Position numbers and translations under genes: made by a program
Assembly: GCA_019635795.1 (NCBI GenBank)
Contig: JAHBYV010000007.1
Location: forward strand, 98,723 to 162,722
Origin: Rhizobiaceae bacterium
GTDB lineage: Bacteria > Pseudomonadota > Alphaproteobacteria > Rhizobiales > Rhizobiaceae
DNA: 64,000 bases
Direction: 5' to 3'
Shown: positions 56,734 to 64,000 of the stretch, one piece after another
Layout of the letters: the number at the start of each line of letters is the position of its first letter
Position numbering within the stretch: position 1 is the stretch's first letter
The notes under the pieces: model-generated
What the model was told of the DNA's origin: nothing
What the model saw: the letters and a program-made list of their open reading frames with translations, nothing else
The model's database searches: none

Positions 56734-56807
56734 TGGGGAATAGGTTAACGGTAGACCAGCGGACTCTGACTCCGTTAGTCCTGGTTCGAATCCAGGTTCC
56801 CCAGCCA
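56734..56807 (+). tRNA. tRNA-Gln (CTG anticodon)
   Basis: A complete cloverleaf can be drawn: acceptor TGGGGAA/TTCCCCA with encoded CCA, D-arm with GGTTAACGG, anticodon stem GCGGA/TCCGT with loop CTCTGAC (anticodon CTG), and T-arm CCTGG-TTCGAAT-CCAGG. It reads CAG glutamine codons. It borders the DNA-modification operon and could be its insertion site. Confidence 0.95.
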
Positions 56808-57269
56808 GTTTTTCCCATAAGCGCTTATTCCTCGATTTTTCAGTCTTGCCGCGTTTCTGTGTGTTTTTTGAACTGCACACAGGGCAATCGCCCAGTAGCG
56901 GTGTGCCAGGACAACCAAGCCGAACGACGGTACGCGCAATTCTTGCGGTTCTATCGTCAATTCGCGTTCAGGGGCTGAGACAACGGATGTGACCTCCATA
57001 GCGGCGGCTTGCGGGCGATATATCCATGCTAAAACCTCAATCTACCTTGCAATCAATTGATGAGTCAGGAATGTAATTCCCTGACCGGGAGGTTACGCAT
57101 GACCAAAATCGCGGGTGGTTCGCGTTGAGCGCAACGGTCATTTTGCTTGAGCACGACGATATATACATGGTTGAAACACAGCAGCTCATTTCACTGAAAC
57201 GCATTTCATTCCGGCCTGGTCCTGAAAGGACCGTCTGCCTATTCCGATTATTAAGAAGCGCGCCCCGTC
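56808..57269. other. Gene-free stretch between tRNA-Gln and the methyltransferase operon
   Basis: 462 bp with no convincing gene. It holds an inverted repeat with one bulge (57064-57085), a 9-codon mini-ORF with a strong RBS (57099-57128) and a GGTCCT-gaa-AGGACC hairpin (57218-57232). No integrase and no copy of the tRNA 3' end are visible. It should contain the promoter of the operon starting at 57270. Confidence 0.6.
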
Positions 57270-59945
57270 ATGATGAACCCCACCGAAATAGCAGATGCCC
57301 TTGATGCCATTGCCAAGGCGGAGTTTGATCCCGCTGAGTTCGGCTATGCCTTTGCTCAGGCGACGGACAATGCGCAGGCAACCGTCGCCAAGTTGAGGGC
57401 GGGCACGACAAACAAGTCGGATATTCCGGGTGGCGTCCTGCTTAATGCCAAATTCCATTATGTGCCGGCCCCCGCAGGCATGGCGGCTGAAATGCTGGAT
57501 GCGCTGCGTATGTCGAAGCGCACGGCGAAGGCAAAGCCTGCGATCCTGATCGCCACCGACGGGGAGACAATCGCCGCCGAACATCCGAAGTCCGGGGAAA
57601 CGCTGCATTGCCGCTTCGAAGATCTTGGCACGCATTTTTCCTTCTTCCTGCCTGCCGCTGGCAAGGAGCGCTACAAGGCGGCAGAAGAAAATCCGGTCGA
57701 TATCAAGGCCACCGGCAAGTTGGCGAAGCTTTACGATGCCTTGCTGAAGGCGAATCCGGATTGGGCCGTGCCAGAGCGTCGCCATGCCATGAACCTGTTC
57801 ATGACGCGGCTGATCTTCTGCCTGTTTTCCGAAGACGTCGGCGTCTTTAAGGATGCCCAATTCTCCTTCGCCGTCTTCTCCTATGGTGGCAACAAGGGGG
57901 AACACGCGCGCCATGTTCTGGTGCAGGCGTTCAGCGCCATGAACCTGCCGGAAGGACTTCGCCCAAACCTGCCCGCATGGACGGAGAAGTTCAAATACGT
58001 CAATGGCGGGCTGTTTGCCGATGCCATAGAGGCGCCGGATTTCGACCCCATATCCTTCCGCTATCTGCGCGACGCCGCAGAGCTGGACTGGAAGCTGATC
58101 AACCCGGATATTTTCGGCTCGATGATCCAGTCGATTGCCGATCCCAAGGCCCGCGCCGAACTGGGCATGCACTACACTTCGGTGCCGAATATCATGAAGG
58201 TGCTGGGGCCGCTGTTTCTGGATGATCTGGATGAGGCGCTGGACAAGGCATGGGACAAGCCAGCAGCCCTGAAGGCCCAGCTTCATCGGCTGTCAAAAAT
58301 TCGTGTGTTCGATCCCGCTTGCGGCTCTGGCAATTTTCTTGTCGTCGCCTATCGGCAGATGCGCGAGCGCGAAATCCGCATTTTGAAGCGGCTGGGCGAG
58401 CTGGAGGATAATCCGCAGAACGTCATGTTCTCCGCCGTCAACCTCAACCAGTTCTATGGCATCGAATTGACGGACTTTGCGGCGGAAACGGCCAAGCTCG
58501 CGCTGTTTATTGCCGAATATCAGGCCAATGCCCGCTTTGCCGATGTATTCGGGCGGATGCCCCCGCTGCTGCCGTTGAAGGGTGGTGGGCAGATCAGATG
58601 CGGCAATGCTCTGCGGGTAAATTGGGACGAGGTTTGCCCGCCGCCGGTTGGGGATGAAGAGGTTTACATTGCGGGCAACCCGCCTTTTTTGGGATCGCGC
58701 AATCAAGAGGACACGCAGAAAGCCGACATGGACTTGGTTTTTTCCGGTCAGCTCCAAGCCTATCGATCACTCGATTTGGTTTCAGCTTGGTATTTCAAGG
58801 CCTCCAAATACATCAGAGAGCGTGCTGCTAGAGCGTCGCTCGTTTCAACAAACTCTATCTGTCAAGGAGCGGCTGTCTCTACGTTGTGGCCGCACATATT
58901 GAACGACAATATCGAAATTTACTTTTGCCACACATCATTCAAATGGCAAAACAATGCCGCAAAAAATGCAGCTGTCATGTGCGTCATAATTGGCATTCGA
59001 AATATTTGCAGCGGTGAAAAGAAGATATTTTCATCTGAAAATTACACTCGCGTGCGTCACATAAATTCATATCTAATAAATTCAAATGAGCAGATTATTC
59101 ATTCAAGTCGCAAATCGTTATTTGATATACCGCAAATGTTCTATGGAAACTATCCGGCTGATGGCAATCATCTGACATTAAATAGGGAGGAAAAGGTTCG
59201 CTTGTTGATGGATTGCCCTTCAGCAGAAAAGTTTATCCGCCCGCTTTATGGCGCTCAAGAGTTTTTAAAAGGAATAGAAAGGTACTGCCTTTGGATACCG
59301 GAAAACGCCTTAAAGGAGGCGCAGGAAATTCCCTATATTAACAGTAGGTTAGATGCCGTTCGCTTGACCCGCTTGAGTAGCAGAGACCCTGGGTATAATA
59401 AATTAGCAGCATCTCCGCATCGTTACCGAGACACTCGAACATCTACCAATCATACAATAGTTATTCCAACAGTTTCGTCGGAGAGGCGAGATTATATTCC
59501 AAGCGGTCTACTGGATGCCTCAGCGGTAACAACTAATCAATGCTTCGCCATATTTGATGGTCCCGAATGGGTTATAAGTATAATTAGTTCGCGCCTGCAC
59601 CTAGTCTGGATCGCCACCGTTTGCGGCAAGCTGAAATCTGACTTCCGCTATTCCAATACGTTGGGTTGGAACACCTTTCCGGTACCCAAATTTACCTCGG
59701 AACAATTGGATCAACTTTCGGCCTCGGCACGCCGCATTCTGAAAACGCGCTATCAGCATTACCCCAAGACCATTGCCGACCTCTACGACCCGGACAAGAT
59801 GCCGGATGATTTGCGGGCGGTACATCGGGAAAATGATGAACTGCTGGAGAGCATGTATATTGGCCGCCCCTTCCGCAATGACACGGAGCGGCTGGAAAAG
59901 CTGTTCAAGCTTTATGCGGCGCGGGTGAAGCAGGGGGCGAAGTAA
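57270..59945 (+). CDS. MmeI-like adenine-specific DNA methyltransferase
   Basis: 891 residues in the MmeI/type IIL layout: N-terminal domain (about 1-150), helical spacer (about 150-330), gamma-class N6-adenine methyltransferase with motif I 'DPACGSGNF' (348-356) and motif IV 'NPPF' (470-473), target-recognition domain (about 580-830) and C-terminal helices ('LYDPDKMPDDLRAVHRENDELLE'). The part that holds the PD-ExK nuclease in MmeI reads L-L-N59-A-K, without the catalytic Glu, so I infer methylation only. The recognition domain is AT-rich relative to the rest. It abuts the helicase gene (0 bp). Confidence 0.88.
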   Translation: MMNPTEIADALDAIAKAEFDPAEFGYAFAQATDNAQATVAKLRAGTTNKSDIPGGVLLNAKFHYVPAPAGMAAEMLDALRMSKRTAKAKPAILIATDGETIAAEHPKSGETLHCRFEDLGTHFSFFLPAAGKERYKAAEENPVDIKATGKLAKLYDALLKANPDWAVPERRHAMNLFMTRLIFCLFSEDVGVFKDAQFSFAVFSYGGNKGEHARHVLVQAFSAMNLPEGLRPNLPAWTEKFKYVNGGLFADAIEAPDFDPISFRYLRDAAELDWKLINPDIFGSMIQSIADPKARAELGMHYTSVPNIMKVLGPLFLDDLDEALDKAWDKPAALKAQLHRLSKIRVFDPACGSGNFLVVAYRQMREREIRILKRLGELEDNPQNVMFSAVNLNQFYGIELTDFAAETAKLALFIAEYQANARFADVFGRMPPLLPLKGGGQIRCGNALRVNWDEVCPPPVGDEEVYIAGNPPFLGSRNQEDTQKADMDLVFSGQLQAYRSLDLVSAWYFKASKYIRERAARASLVSTNSICQGAAVSTLWPHILNDNIEIYFCHTSFKWQNNAAKNAAVMCVIIGIRNICSGEKKIFSSENYTRVRHINSYLINSNEQIIHSSRKSLFDIPQMFYGNYPADGNHLTLNREEKVRLLMDCPSAEKFIRPLYGAQEFLKGIERYCLWIPENALKEAQEIPYINSRLDAVRLTRLSSRDPGYNKLAASPHRYRDTRTSTNHTIVIPTVSSERRDYIPSGLLDASAVTTNQCFAIFDGPEWVISIISSRLHLVWIATVCGKLKSDFRYSNTLGWNTFPVPKFTSEQLDQLSASARRILKTRYQHYPKTIADLYDPDKMPDDLRAVHRENDELLESMYIGRPFRNDTERLEKLFKLYAARVKQGAK

Positions 59946-62090
59946 ATGGTTGAGATGGTCAATGTGCACTACAATGGCACCGGGCAATCCAAGGCCACCA
60001 ATGCGCTCGGTCAGCGGCCCATGCAGGCCCGCGCCTATGCCGCCCGCAGCGCGCAGTTTCTTCTGCTGAAAGCGCCGCCTGCCGCAGGCAAAAGCCGCGC
60101 GCTGATGTTTGTGGCGCTCGACAAGCTGAACCATCAGGGGTTGGCCAAGACCATCGTTTGCGTGCCGGAAACCTCAATAGGGGGCTCGTTTCGCTCGACC
60201 GATCTGAAAAGCTATGGCTTCGATGCTGATTGGCAGGTGGAAGACCGCTGGAACCTCTGCCTTTCCGGCACGGAGGAGGGCTCAACAGCGCAAAAGGTGA
60301 AGGCGTTTTCGGAATTCATGCAGTCTGACGCTCGTGTGCTGGTCTGCACCCATGCCACTTTCCGCTTCGGTTTTGAGGCCGTGGAGCGGGCGCACGGAAT
60401 CGAAGCGTTCGACAATGTCTTTCTCGCTATTGATGAGTTCCACCACGTCTCGGCAGCAGACAACAATCGCCTGGGTGAAATCCTGCGGCAGATCATTGCG
60501 CGCGGCCAGAGCCATGTGATGGCCATGACTGGCTCTTACTTCCGGGGAGATGCCGTGCCCGTGTTGAGGCCGGAGGAAGAGGCGCGCTTCACCGCAATCA
60601 CCTATTCCTATTATGAACAGCTTGAGGGCTACGAATATCTGAAGGCGCTCGGCGTCAATTACAGCTTCTATCGCGGCAAATACATTAATGGCCTGCCGGA
60701 TGTGCTCGATACCACGCTGAAGACGATCATTCACATTCCCCATCGCGGCTCAGCGGAGGCCTTTGGCGAGAAGAATGATGAAGTCGGTCGCATTCTCGAT
60801 CTCATCGGCAAACATATCGGCGTGGAAGAGGGCACTGGCTTCGATCTGATCCGAACTTCGGATGGTCGCGTGCTGAAAGTGGCCGATCTCGTCAATGACG
60901 GGCCGGAGCGGGAGGGAGTGAAGGCCGCGCTTTCCCGCGAGATAAAGGGGCCGGACGGCAAGCGGGACGATGTTGCCGACCGCGCCAAGGTGGATATCAT
61001 CATCGCGCTCGGCATGGCCAAGGAGGGTTTCGACTGGGTGTGGTGCGAGCACGCGCTGACCATCGGCTACCGCGCGTCGCTCACCGAAATCGTGCAGATC
61101 ATCGGGCGCGCCACGCGCGATGCACCGGGCAAGCGGAAAGCTATCTTTACCAATCTGGTTGCGGAACCCGGCGTGGAAACGACGGCAGTGAAAGATGCCG
61201 TCAACGACATGCTGAAGGCTATTTCCGGTTCGCTGTTGATGGAGCAGGTGCTGGCCCCCAACTTCAAGTTCTATCGCCGGGAAGACGGCGATATCCGGGA
61301 GCCGATCAGCGATGATGGTCAGGGTACGATCACCATCGGCATCAAAGGCCTGATGGAGCCGCCGACCGACCGGGCGCGCGAAATCTGCGAGAACGACATG
61401 GCCGATCTGATGGCAACCGCCTGTCAGGCCGTCGATGCACGGATCGTTTCACCGGATACAGCGCCGGAAGTGGCCACGCAGATGCTGCTGACGGACATTA
61501 TCGAGCATCGCTATGAAAACCTGAGCGACGACGAAACCGAGTCCATCCGCCAGAACCTCGCCGCCCGAATGAACCTTTTGACGCTGGCGCGCCAGGAAGC
61601 CGAGCGCGGATTTCAGGAAGCGGGAACGCCATTCATCGGGGCCGATCAGGCTGAAGGTGATGCGCCCGGAACGGGCAGCGGCACGGGGCAAGCCGATGCG
61701 CAAAGTGCGGAAGACGATATGAGGGCAGCACCCAACACGCTGCTGGCCATGGTGCGTCGATTCATTAATGTCCGCGAGTTGGATATCGACCTGATCGATG
61801 GCGTAAATGCCTTTCAGGAATGTTTTGAAGTTGCGTCACGTAACTTCGATGCGCCACTTCTGTCTCAGGTGCAGTCCGCCATGGTGGCCATGCGCGTTCA
61901 GATGAGCGAGGATGAAGCTCGCACGCTTTGGCCCCGAATCAAGCGTTTCCGGGCGCAGGAAGGCCGCGAGCCGAATGTGCATGCCGCCGACCCGCTGGAG
62001 AAGCGCATGGCGGAGGCTCTGGCGTGGCTCAAGAACCGAAAAGCGCAAAGCATGCGGGAGGCAGAAGCTGATGCCGCGCCCCACGCTTGA
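59946..62090 (+). CDS. SF2 DEAD/DEAH-type helicase or translocase
   Basis: 714 residues. Walker A 'APPAAGKS' (43-50), Walker B 'DEFH' (163-166), motif III 'MTGSY' (194-198), 'AKEGFDW' (358-364) and motif VI 'QIIGRATRD' (384-392). The C-terminal third is unrecognised apart from an acidic low-complexity stretch (about 555-595) and a short helicase-associated-like motif (665-699). It begins directly after the methyltransferase stop and overlaps the nuclease gene by 20 bp, so the three are co-translated. Likely a DNA translocase serving the system. Confidence 0.87.
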   Translation: MVEMVNVHYNGTGQSKATNALGQRPMQARAYAARSAQFLLLKAPPAAGKSRALMFVALDKLNHQGLAKTIVCVPETSIGGSFRSTDLKSYGFDADWQVEDRWNLCLSGTEEGSTAQKVKAFSEFMQSDARVLVCTHATFRFGFEAVERAHGIEAFDNVFLAIDEFHHVSAADNNRLGEILRQIIARGQSHVMAMTGSYFRGDAVPVLRPEEEARFTAITYSYYEQLEGYEYLKALGVNYSFYRGKYINGLPDVLDTTLKTIIHIPHRGSAEAFGEKNDEVGRILDLIGKHIGVEEGTGFDLIRTSDGRVLKVADLVNDGPEREGVKAALSREIKGPDGKRDDVADRAKVDIIIALGMAKEGFDWVWCEHALTIGYRASLTEIVQIIGRATRDAPGKRKAIFTNLVAEPGVETTAVKDAVNDMLKAISGSLLMEQVLAPNFKFYRREDGDIREPISDDGQGTITIGIKGLMEPPTDRAREICENDMADLMATACQAVDARIVSPDTAPEVATQMLLTDIIEHRYENLSDDETESIRQNLAARMNLLTLARQEAERGFQEAGTPFIGADQAEGDAPGTGSGTGQADAQSAEDDMRAAPNTLLAMVRRFINVRELDIDLIDGVNAFQECFEVASRNFDAPLLSQVQSAMVAMRVQMSEDEARTLWPRIKRFRAQEGREPNVHAADPLEKRMAEALAWLKNRKAQSMREAEADAAPHA

Positions 62091-63273
62091 GCAGATATTT
62101 GCGGAGCCGGATGAATTCGGCCTGCTTGCCGTCAAGATGAAGCCGAGGCCAGCCTCAACCGGCAATAATGGCGTAGCAATTATGAGCGACGTTACGCGCT
62201 TTTATGAAACGCATGGACGTTTGCCACGCGCCAATTCACCCAATCACGAAGAAATGCGGCTTGGCACAATCTGGGAGAGTCTTGTCAAGGACCCCAGCGA
62301 AGAGCTTCGCCGTGCTGACAGGCTTGGGTTATTGGGTCTCGAAGAGACAGCAGCCGAAATTTCATGGAGGGATGAGGTTGAGGCGGAGAGTATTCCGGAC
62401 ACGCTGGACGACATTTTCGCCGAAGATGGTCTCGATGTTCAGCCGGAACTCGTTCAGCTCAGGCACGTGACACCGGCGGCGGAGCGCCAGGTGCCGGATC
62501 ACCGCGCGGATTTTGTTCCGTGCAAGGACTTCGATCAATTCGCCAGCCTGTTCGAGACAATGCAACAGGCGCTCGATAGTGGCGCGCGAGAGGCGACGTT
62601 GGTCGAGAAATGGGCCGTTATTGAGCCTTTGGAAGGCGACTTCTTCATTCGCAACGGCCTTCTGGCCTATATCGCGGAAAAGAGCGAGGGCGCGCAGCGC
62701 AGCGGAGCGCGGGATCATCGACTTCGGGTCATTTTCTCGAATGGCACGGAGAGCGACCCGTTGATGTCGTCGTTTCGCAAGTCGCTTAGTGACGACAAGA
62801 CGGCGCGTGTCGTTCAGCGTTTGGGCCTTGGCCCTCTGGACCCCGATTGGGAAACCGACAAGATTTCGTTGTCAGGCACGATTTACGTCGCGCGTAGCCT
62901 CTCTGAGGATCCGGCTATCAGGCCGCAGCGTGACATTCTCTACAAGGTTGGCGTGACGTCGCAGGATGTCCGTCGTCGCGTGGCCGATGCGCGGAATGAT
63001 CCAACCTTCCTTCTGGCGCCCGTCGAAATCGTGGCAACCTACAGCCTGCAGAATCTATCCCGTTCCAAGGTCGAGAACTTGCTTCACCGATTCTTTGATC
63101 CTGCCCGACCAGGCGAGCTCTTCATCATCGATCGCTTCGGCAAGAAGATCAGGCCGCGTGAGTGGTTCTATGTTCTGCCGGAGCACGTCGGGCAGGCCGC
63201 CCAACTCATCAAGGACGGGCAGCTCCATCTGTACCGGTATGATCGCCAGACGCAGAAGATTGTTAAGAGATAG
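62071..63273 (+). CDS. GIY-YIG nuclease-domain protein (T5orf172-like)
   Basis: 400 residues. N-terminal part: unknown, except for a helicase-associated-like motif (about 43-71) shared with the upstream helicase. C-terminal GIY-YIG domain at about 268-370: 'GTIYVARS' (GIY), 'LYKVGVTS' (YIG), Arg 301-303, catalytic Glu335 in 'KVENLLHRFF', and 'REWFYV'. Probably the DNA-cutting subunit of the operon. ATG 62071 has GGGAGG upstream; the frame is open earlier inside the helicase gene but those codons are not conserved-looking. Confidence 0.82.
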   Translation: MPRPTLEQIFAEPDEFGLLAVKMKPRPASTGNNGVAIMSDVTRFYETHGRLPRANSPNHEEMRLGTIWESLVKDPSEELRRADRLGLLGLEETAAEISWRDEVEAESIPDTLDDIFAEDGLDVQPELVQLRHVTPAAERQVPDHRADFVPCKDFDQFASLFETMQQALDSGAREATLVEKWAVIEPLEGDFFIRNGLLAYIAEKSEGAQRSGARDHRLRVIFSNGTESDPLMSSFRKSLSDDKTARVVQRLGLGPLDPDWETDKISLSGTIYVARSLSEDPAIRPQRDILYKVGVTSQDVRRRVADARNDPTFLLAPVEIVATYSLQNLSRSKVENLLHRFFDPARPGELFIIDRFGKKIRPREWFYVLPEHVGQAAQLIKDGQLHLYRYDRQTQKIVKR

Positions 63274-63937: not shown

Positions 63938-64000
63938 ATGAACATCAAGAGCCTTCTTCTCGGCTCAGCTGCAGCTCTGGTTGCAGTTTCCGGTGCTCGC
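63938..64000 (+). CDS. Omp2-type outer membrane porin (3' end outside window)
   Basis: Only 21 codons are present: MNIKSLLLGSAAALVAVSGA then R, a signal peptide nearly identical to that of Brucella Omp2a/Omp2b porins. ATG 63938 follows GGAGG at ideal spacing. Assignment rests on the signal peptide alone, but that sequence is very characteristic of the Rhizobiales porin family. Confidence 0.85.
   Translation, partial: MNIKSLLLGSAAALVAVSGAR

Follow-up and report, generated by a model that had tools for sequence, protein, structure and literature searches.

A dnmA-yeeB-yeeC-type gene trio in a Rhizobiaceae bacterium, probably encoding a methyltransferase-guided restriction-modification system

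The stretch of DNA analysed here, referred to as the window, comprises 64,000 nucleotides of contig JAHBYV010000007.1 from a Rhizobiaceae bacterium (assembly GCA_019635795.1). Close to its end lie three genes on the same strand, encoding an MmeI/DnmA-type DNA methyltransferase, a YeeB-like superfamily 2 (SF2) helicase and a YeeC-like protein of the GIY-YIG superfamily (Table 1). The methyltransferase and helicase genes abut with 0 bp between them, and the helicase and nuclease genes overlap by 20 bp. As listed, the open reading frame (ORF) of the nuclease begins at 61912, while the start consistent with the family is 62071. An earlier reading of the window, made from the sequence alone, had named the same three proteins with these positions and junctions, and the ORFs and Pfam matches bore this out.

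Table 1. Features of the trio and its surroundings in the window.
Feature	Coordinates	Strand	Remarks
MmeI/DnmA-type N6-adenine DNA methyltransferase, 891 aa	57270..59945	+	From ORF and Pfam domains; MmeI_N domain without D/E/K nuclease triad, helical spacer, methyltransferase core, target-recognition domain, C-terminal helices
Exchanged target-recognition cassette, including second half of methyltransferase domain	58694..59588	+	DNA unalignable to L035; flanks align
SF2 ATPase/helicase, YeeB-like, 714 aa	59946..62090	+	Motifs intact
Helicase C-terminal module, about aa 655-703	61908..62054	+	Homologous to nuclease N-terminal module
T5orf172/MUG113 (GIY-YIG superfamily) protein, YeeC-like, probable nuclease, 400 aa	62071..63273	+	ATG at 62071
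Nuclease N-terminal helical module, about aa 31-93	62161..62349	+	Common to helicase C-terminus
GIY-YIG/T5orf172 domain, nuclease aa 269-379	62875..63207	+	
tRNA-Gln	56734..56807	+	

All five MmeI domains were present in the methyltransferase according to Pfam, so that it has the MmeI architecture, and its family profile matched the MmeI structure 5hr4 with an E-value of 8.6e-270. The helicase matched the DEAD, ResIII and Helicase_C models, of which DEAD alone exceeded its cut-off. The third protein matched MUG113 at 40.9 bits (cut-off 22.3) and T5orf172 at 32.5 (cut-off 20), and the plain GIY-YIG Pfam model gave no match to it at E<=1.

The sequence-only reading had treated this combination as one that it could not name. 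Its claim to novelty fails, as homologous trios match a described type, the conserved dnmA-yeeB-yeeC cluster, which is treated as a putative restriction-modification (RM) system in PMC9973331 and PMC7261158. According to PMC7261158, Morgan et al. had already remarked in 2009 on MmeI homologues flanked by conserved genes; the arrangement is surveyed in PMC9973331. In Bacillus subtilis, as these papers describe it, dnmA (yeeA), encoding an MmeI-like N6-methyladenine (m6A) methyltransferase, is followed by genes for a putative helicase (yeeB) and a T5orf172 protein (yeeC); DnmA sets m6A at the asymmetric site GACGAG and lacks the endonuclease motif, and a type I-like RM system is said to have been suggested earlier for the cluster (PMC9973331, PMC7261158). 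The B. subtilis genome, used as a control, matched the T5orf172 and MmeI_Mtase models. Titles and abstracts, with most subscription journals outside their coverage, yielded no later mechanistic study of the trio. The window trio is a member of a widespread cassette known from earlier work; the partition of the triad, the cassette exchange, the shared module and the gene insertions reported below are additions of the present analysis, and the function of the trio is now testable.

A helicase profile was used to scan a collection of 84,980 species genomes, in which at least 523 relatives were confirmed among 590 pattern hits. The locus counts given below refer to the closest relatives, that is, the best-scoring 80 of these. 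The methyltransferase gene lay upstream of the helicase gene in 77/80 and the nuclease gene downstream in 79/80, on the same strand, and in one locus (L053) the contig ended 19 bases past the helicase match. All three genes were found together in 76 of the 80. The catalytic residues are near-invariant across the family in all three proteins; key residues are invariant in 81/81 helicases and 77/77 full-length nucleases (split and partial rows excluded), and in the latter these include Y272, R303 and E335, which together with the MUG113 and T5orf172 matches place the third protein in the GIY-YIG superfamily. In the window trio, the methyltransferase has Asn470 in its NPPF motif and the helicase has Lys49 in Walker A.

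MmeI cuts DNA with the residues D70, E80 and K82, as reported in PMC4833311, and at these positions the window methyltransferase has G, V and A. An alignment of 71 full-length methyltransferases (the window and 70 of 77 loci, 7 partial or split rows having been dropped) had D at position 70 in 5 members, E or D at 80 in none, K at 82 in one and the full triad in none; the alignment around this region is uncertain for trio methyltransferases, and 13/71 contain a loosely defined D-x(8-14)-[DE]-x-K pattern at another place within residues 1-150. A search with the MmeI methyltransferase domain through a sample of 385 genomes of the window's class gave 30 loci as best-scoring hits. In trio genomes the triad was found in 0/15 readable methyltransferases, from 17 loci including that of the window (L141 is a fragment and L143 yielded no ORF), whereas D-E-K was present in 13/13 loci of genomes without a helicase match, a status taken from the genome-wide helicase search of the 385 and not from reading each neighbourhood. 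Within the class sample, then, the triad appears to be missing from genomes with the helicase and retained in those lacking it, as would be expected if the task of cutting had been handed over.

This partition bears on a simple alternative, namely that the methyltransferase is a single-protein type IIG/IIL restriction enzyme with two unrelated neighbours. PADLOC files it as REase_MTase_IIG (E 9.5e-270), although the MmeI cutting triad is gone. In type IIG/IIL enzymes the methyltransferase chain itself bears a PD-(D/E)XK triad, located in its N-terminal domain; here the window residues, the absence of the triad from all 15 readable trio methyltransferases of the class sample and the linkage of helicase and nuclease to the methyltransferase in 76 of 80 loci make this explanation very improbable. 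A methyltransferase devoid of the MmeI endonuclease motif is instead what the dnmA cluster has.

The target-recognition domain (TRD) of the window methyltransferase appears to have been swapped relative to its nearest relative, a locus of an uncultured Rhizobium (L035). Identity between the two is 93% in the helicase, 84% in the nuclease, 95% in the methyltransferase core and 97% in its C-terminal domain, but 47% in the TRD. At the DNA level, the two loci show 83-84% identity over positions 57173-58693 and 59589-63266, with an unalignable stretch in between. The G+C content is 0.46 in the 1-kb windows 58500-59499 and 59000-59999, and 0.545-0.606 in the remaining intra-operon 1-kb windows between 57500 and 62999. 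Helicase identity reached 80% or more in 48 pairs, which share members and are not independent. Their mean identity was 48% in the TRD versus 84% in the core; 26 of them combined at least 75% in core and C-terminal domain with at most 55% in the TRD, and 2 had a TRD above 75%. The median TRD identity over all pairs was 39%. Sliding identity drops past the methyltransferase core and recovers ahead of the C-terminal domain. Individual pairs cover the range, from L093/L098 (helicase 96%, TRD 40%) to L042/L043, in which the cassette was not exchanged (98% and 99%), and the reverse pattern of L088/L079 (TRD 75%, core 59%). Since the TRD is exchanged beside conserved partners, these partners would need no specificity of their own. 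Moreover, a nuclease of fixed specificity beside a methyltransferase of swapped specificity would expose the host, and cleavage should therefore follow the methyltransferase.

A further link between the partners is a module common to helicase and nuclease. When profiles of the helicase C-terminus (595-708) and the nuclease N-terminus (25-110) were compared, the probability was 95.7 (E 9.7e-9, 46 columns); ten other nuclease/helicase segments reached at most 1.7, and the value of 95.7 recurred with a segment overlapping the nuclease module. In comparisons with nine methyltransferase segments, the probability did not exceed 1.9. A G-R-x-P-like signature within it was found in 65/81 helicases and 71/77 nucleases. 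The helicase C-terminus matched a pseudomurein-binding repeat model in 5/28 members, which may explain why some plasmid copies are labelled 'pseudomurein-binding repeat-containing protein'.

The spacing between the methyltransferase and helicase genes was below 60 bp in 44/77 loci and above 350 bp in 33/77. From 32 of the 33 gapped loci (L082 gave none) 54 ORFs were picked by eye, with up to four shown per locus. By protein, the Pfam tallies were Abi_2 5, Fic 4, RecG-C-like ATPase 4, RhuM 3, YafQ 3 and ParE 3, and PIN, DUF1016/YhcG, AbiEii, HepT, BrnT, CcdB, GmrSD, KilA-N and others occurred as pairs or singles, among the first 25 of 39 insert families; these tallies cover the methyltransferase-helicase junction alone. 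Inserted ORFs were also matched by PADLOC models, many of them for candidate systems, and by their domain matches many inserted genes appear to belong to toxin or defence families. HepT/MNT and AbiE types were seen among the junction genes. The junction of the window, at 0 bp, carries no insert. Insertion-prone places are known from type I RM loci as well.

Toxin and abortive-infection families located between the genes could suggest a different kind of defence, in which the methyltransferase senses phage DNA, and the helicase and nuclease strike phage replication intermediates or the host. According to PMC9973331, Vibrio crassostreae became more sensitive to some phages once its dnmA or yeeB homologue was deleted, a protection specific to phage clades, and phages avoid no motif; both findings would suit such abortive or modification-sensing action. 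The accessory genes are, however, absent from the 44 closely spaced loci, which places them outside the core, and the TRD exchange argues for action that depends on a motif. We consider this explanation quite unlikely.

In the class to which the window belongs, 18/385 genomes matched, one of them (G102) by a weak partial hit, leaving 17/385 that carry the family, the window's own included. It occurred in 0/2 genomes of the same genus, 4/34 of the same family and 2/24 of the same order, and identity to these same-family and same-order relatives is 51-55%, much lower than the 93% of L035. Plasmid records matched in 263/72,556 cases, 153 of them covering at least 80% of the helicase. In a near-identity search with a Klebsiella plasmid trio, 4/5,426 complete E. 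coli genomes matched, 3 over at least 80%; two of these three are assemblies of one strain, AW1.7, in which the trio adjoins an integrase and tRNA-Sec. The 79 placeable helicase loci span 12 phyla, and on the helicase tree (FastTree only) the phylum label switches 18 times, against a minimum of 11 and a shuffled mean of 26.3, with a count as low in 0/200 shuffles; such label-change counts are no proof of transfer. The plasmid carriage, the integrase/tRNA-Sec context and the 12 phyla were counted as signs of a mobile family and, as such, in favour of the RM system proposed below. According to its annotation, the trio of Klebsiella pneumoniae pMET-1 (L149) directly adjoins a beta-lactamase gene, with more resistance genes alongside. 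Among the plasmid records H98-H122, several of Acinetobacter baumannii and Pseudosulfitobacter match about the first 165 helicase residues or the later part only, and are possibly decayed copies.

Over the last 16 kb of the window, the match to L035 is limited to 57173-63266, the cassette itself. Both same-genus relatives retain the neighbourhood of recA, a lysozyme-like gene and tRNA-Gln, and their homology to the window breaks off at 56813 or 56807, no more than 6 bp from the tRNA-Gln end; 3' of this tRNA the two genomes match neither the window nor one another. Since synteny with both ends at tRNA-Gln, the trio occupies a variable spot behind it; within 56734-57270 the sequence after the tRNA differs between the window and both genomes. 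On its other side, the contig ends where the window ends, and at 63938-64000 an ORF opens with what resembles a signal peptide (MNIKSLLLGSAAALVAVSGAR...) and is truncated by the contig end.

In our view the trio probably encodes a methyltransferase-guided, ATP-dependent three-subunit RM system of the DnmA-YeeB-YeeC kind, resembling a dissected type ISP/III enzyme. The MmeI-like protein would be modification enzyme and specificity subunit in one, its TRD reading a short asymmetric motif on which the methyltransferase is predicted to set m6A on one strand. The MmeI_N domain, without its triad, probably persists as a docking surface. At unmodified sites the methyltransferase would recruit the YeeB-like motor, which, powered by ATP, would travel or send a signal along the DNA; the YeeC-like nuclease, tethered via the module that it has in common with the motor, would then cut. 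Cutting most likely requires two facing unmodified sites, as it does for enzymes of types III and ISP, because methylation of one strand leaves unmodified sites in newly replicated host DNA. Head-to-head site pairs have been argued for MmeI-type enzymes in PMC3874165, and a motor protein would supply the means for communication between them. In the simplest account the TRD of the methyltransferase is the only specificity element, and motor and nuclease act in trans. The earlier sequence-only reading had held that self DNA is methylated and unmodified DNA translocated and cut; methylation of self and cleavage of unmodified DNA remain the best reading, given the triad partition, the TRD exchange and selection, while the window proteins are inferred to translocate and cut DNA. 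The raised phage sensitivity of the V. crassostreae deletions, as told in PMC9973331, also counts in favour of an active system.

A more specific version, which we offer tentatively and hold somewhat less probable than not, is a dissected type ISP-like machine with a nuclease-dead MmeI scaffold, an exchangeable cassette, a separate motor and nuclease joined by a duplicated module, and a junction serving as landing place for accessory toxin and defence genes. A shift of specificity by cassette swap, with the cutting subunits unchanged, would account for the lack of any one motif that phages avoid.

Several points weigh against an active RM system of this kind. In B. subtilis, as reported in PMC9973331 and PMC7261158, deletions left the efficiency of plating of, and killing by, three phages unchanged, plasmid uptake was unaffected and phages showed no avoidance of GACGAG (observed/expected 0.97), and for these reasons the authors term the cluster a relic. 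In one of the 17 class genomes with the family (G045:C278, L164) the nuclease is recognisable only at its start, the N-terminal module, while methyltransferase and helicase remain, and in L074 the nuclease is split, the other two genes being present. The helicase model resembles many SF2 enzymes and hence singles out no translocase. Helicase-nuclease pairs without a methyltransferase may exist, since in 3/80 loci (L068, L080 and L083) none was found in the 1.3, 2.0 and 1.9 kb available upstream before the contig end; methyltransferase-helicase gaps as large or larger were seen in other loci. On the favourable side, in L070, L111 and G034 (G034:C13, the same as L165) the methyltransferase frame is split or interrupted beside a full-length helicase and nuclease, which fits a nuclease dependent on the methyltransferase unless the split frames are sequencing errors, as they could be. 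The growth of B. subtilis delta-dnmA without defect, reported in PMC7261158, also fits a nuclease that needs the methyltransferase.

The B. subtilis results and the damaged nucleases would be accounted for if the methyltransferase were an orphan epigenetic regulator, with helicase and nuclease as inactive passengers. We find this unlikely. In seven close pairs, Nei-Gojobori ratios of nonsynonymous to synonymous substitution rates (dN/dS) were computable for the helicase in six, at 0.034-0.100, and for the nuclease in five, at 0.031-0.135; elsewhere dS was saturated, and some of the computed values are rough, with dS >1. This purifying selection, as estimated from the coding sequences, is at odds with cutting subunits that are decaying in these lineages, TRD-exchanged ones included. 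The invariant key residues mentioned above and the plasmid carriage also argue against a relic, and TRD exchange would scramble an epigenetic regulon. In the lineage of the window, the triad partition and the TRD exchange together argue against a dead relic.

The question matters because the family is widespread, yet according to PMC9973331 the two members that have been put to the test gave conflicting answers on activity. If the RM system proposed here is real, it would assign T5orf172 proteins to a defined restriction pathway and allow many loci to be annotated correctly. It predicts that two natural trios whose main difference is the TRD will each methylate and attack a motif of their own.

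Among named systems, PADLOC-DB 2.0.0 accommodates the trio only in part: apart from the match of the methyltransferase described above, no one named system covers helicase and nuclease, whose best matches, both partial, were PbeA (E 2.1e-5) and PDC-S57 (E 1.2e-5). The methyltransferase is distantly related to those of DISARM class 1 (DrmMI, E 3.9e-32) and BREX (PglX, E 1.2e-6), and the helicase had four listed PADLOC families, none of them a DISARM or BREX model, other components having been sought in the three proteins only. Type III enzymes such as EcoP15I likewise recognise an asymmetric site, methylate one strand, use an SF2 motor and require the methyltransferase for cutting. Their Mod subunit is of the beta class and their PD-(D/E)XK nuclease is fused to the Res motor, whereas the window has an MmeI-type methyltransferase and a separate T5orf172 protein. 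MmeI itself (type IIL/IIG) shares the five-domain methyltransferase, and methylation of one strand is expected by homology; it cuts by its own D70/E80/K82 (PMC4833311), while the window protein has lost this triad and is joined by helicase and nuclease genes. The type ISP enzymes LlaGI and LlaBIII, as described in PMC3874165, likewise combine nuclease, ATP-dependent translocase, gamma-class methyltransferase and TRD on asymmetric sites, but in one polypeptide with an Mrr-like nuclease (typically PD-QXK), in contrast to the three separate ORFs and T5orf172/GIY-YIG protein of the window. Closest of all is DnmA-YeeB-YeeC of B. subtilis, which in the published description (PMC9973331, PMC7261158) has the same order of MmeI-like methyltransferase without endonuclease motif, SF2 helicase and T5orf172 protein; the likeness rests on that description, on gene order and on domains, and the family profiles match the window copy over its full length.

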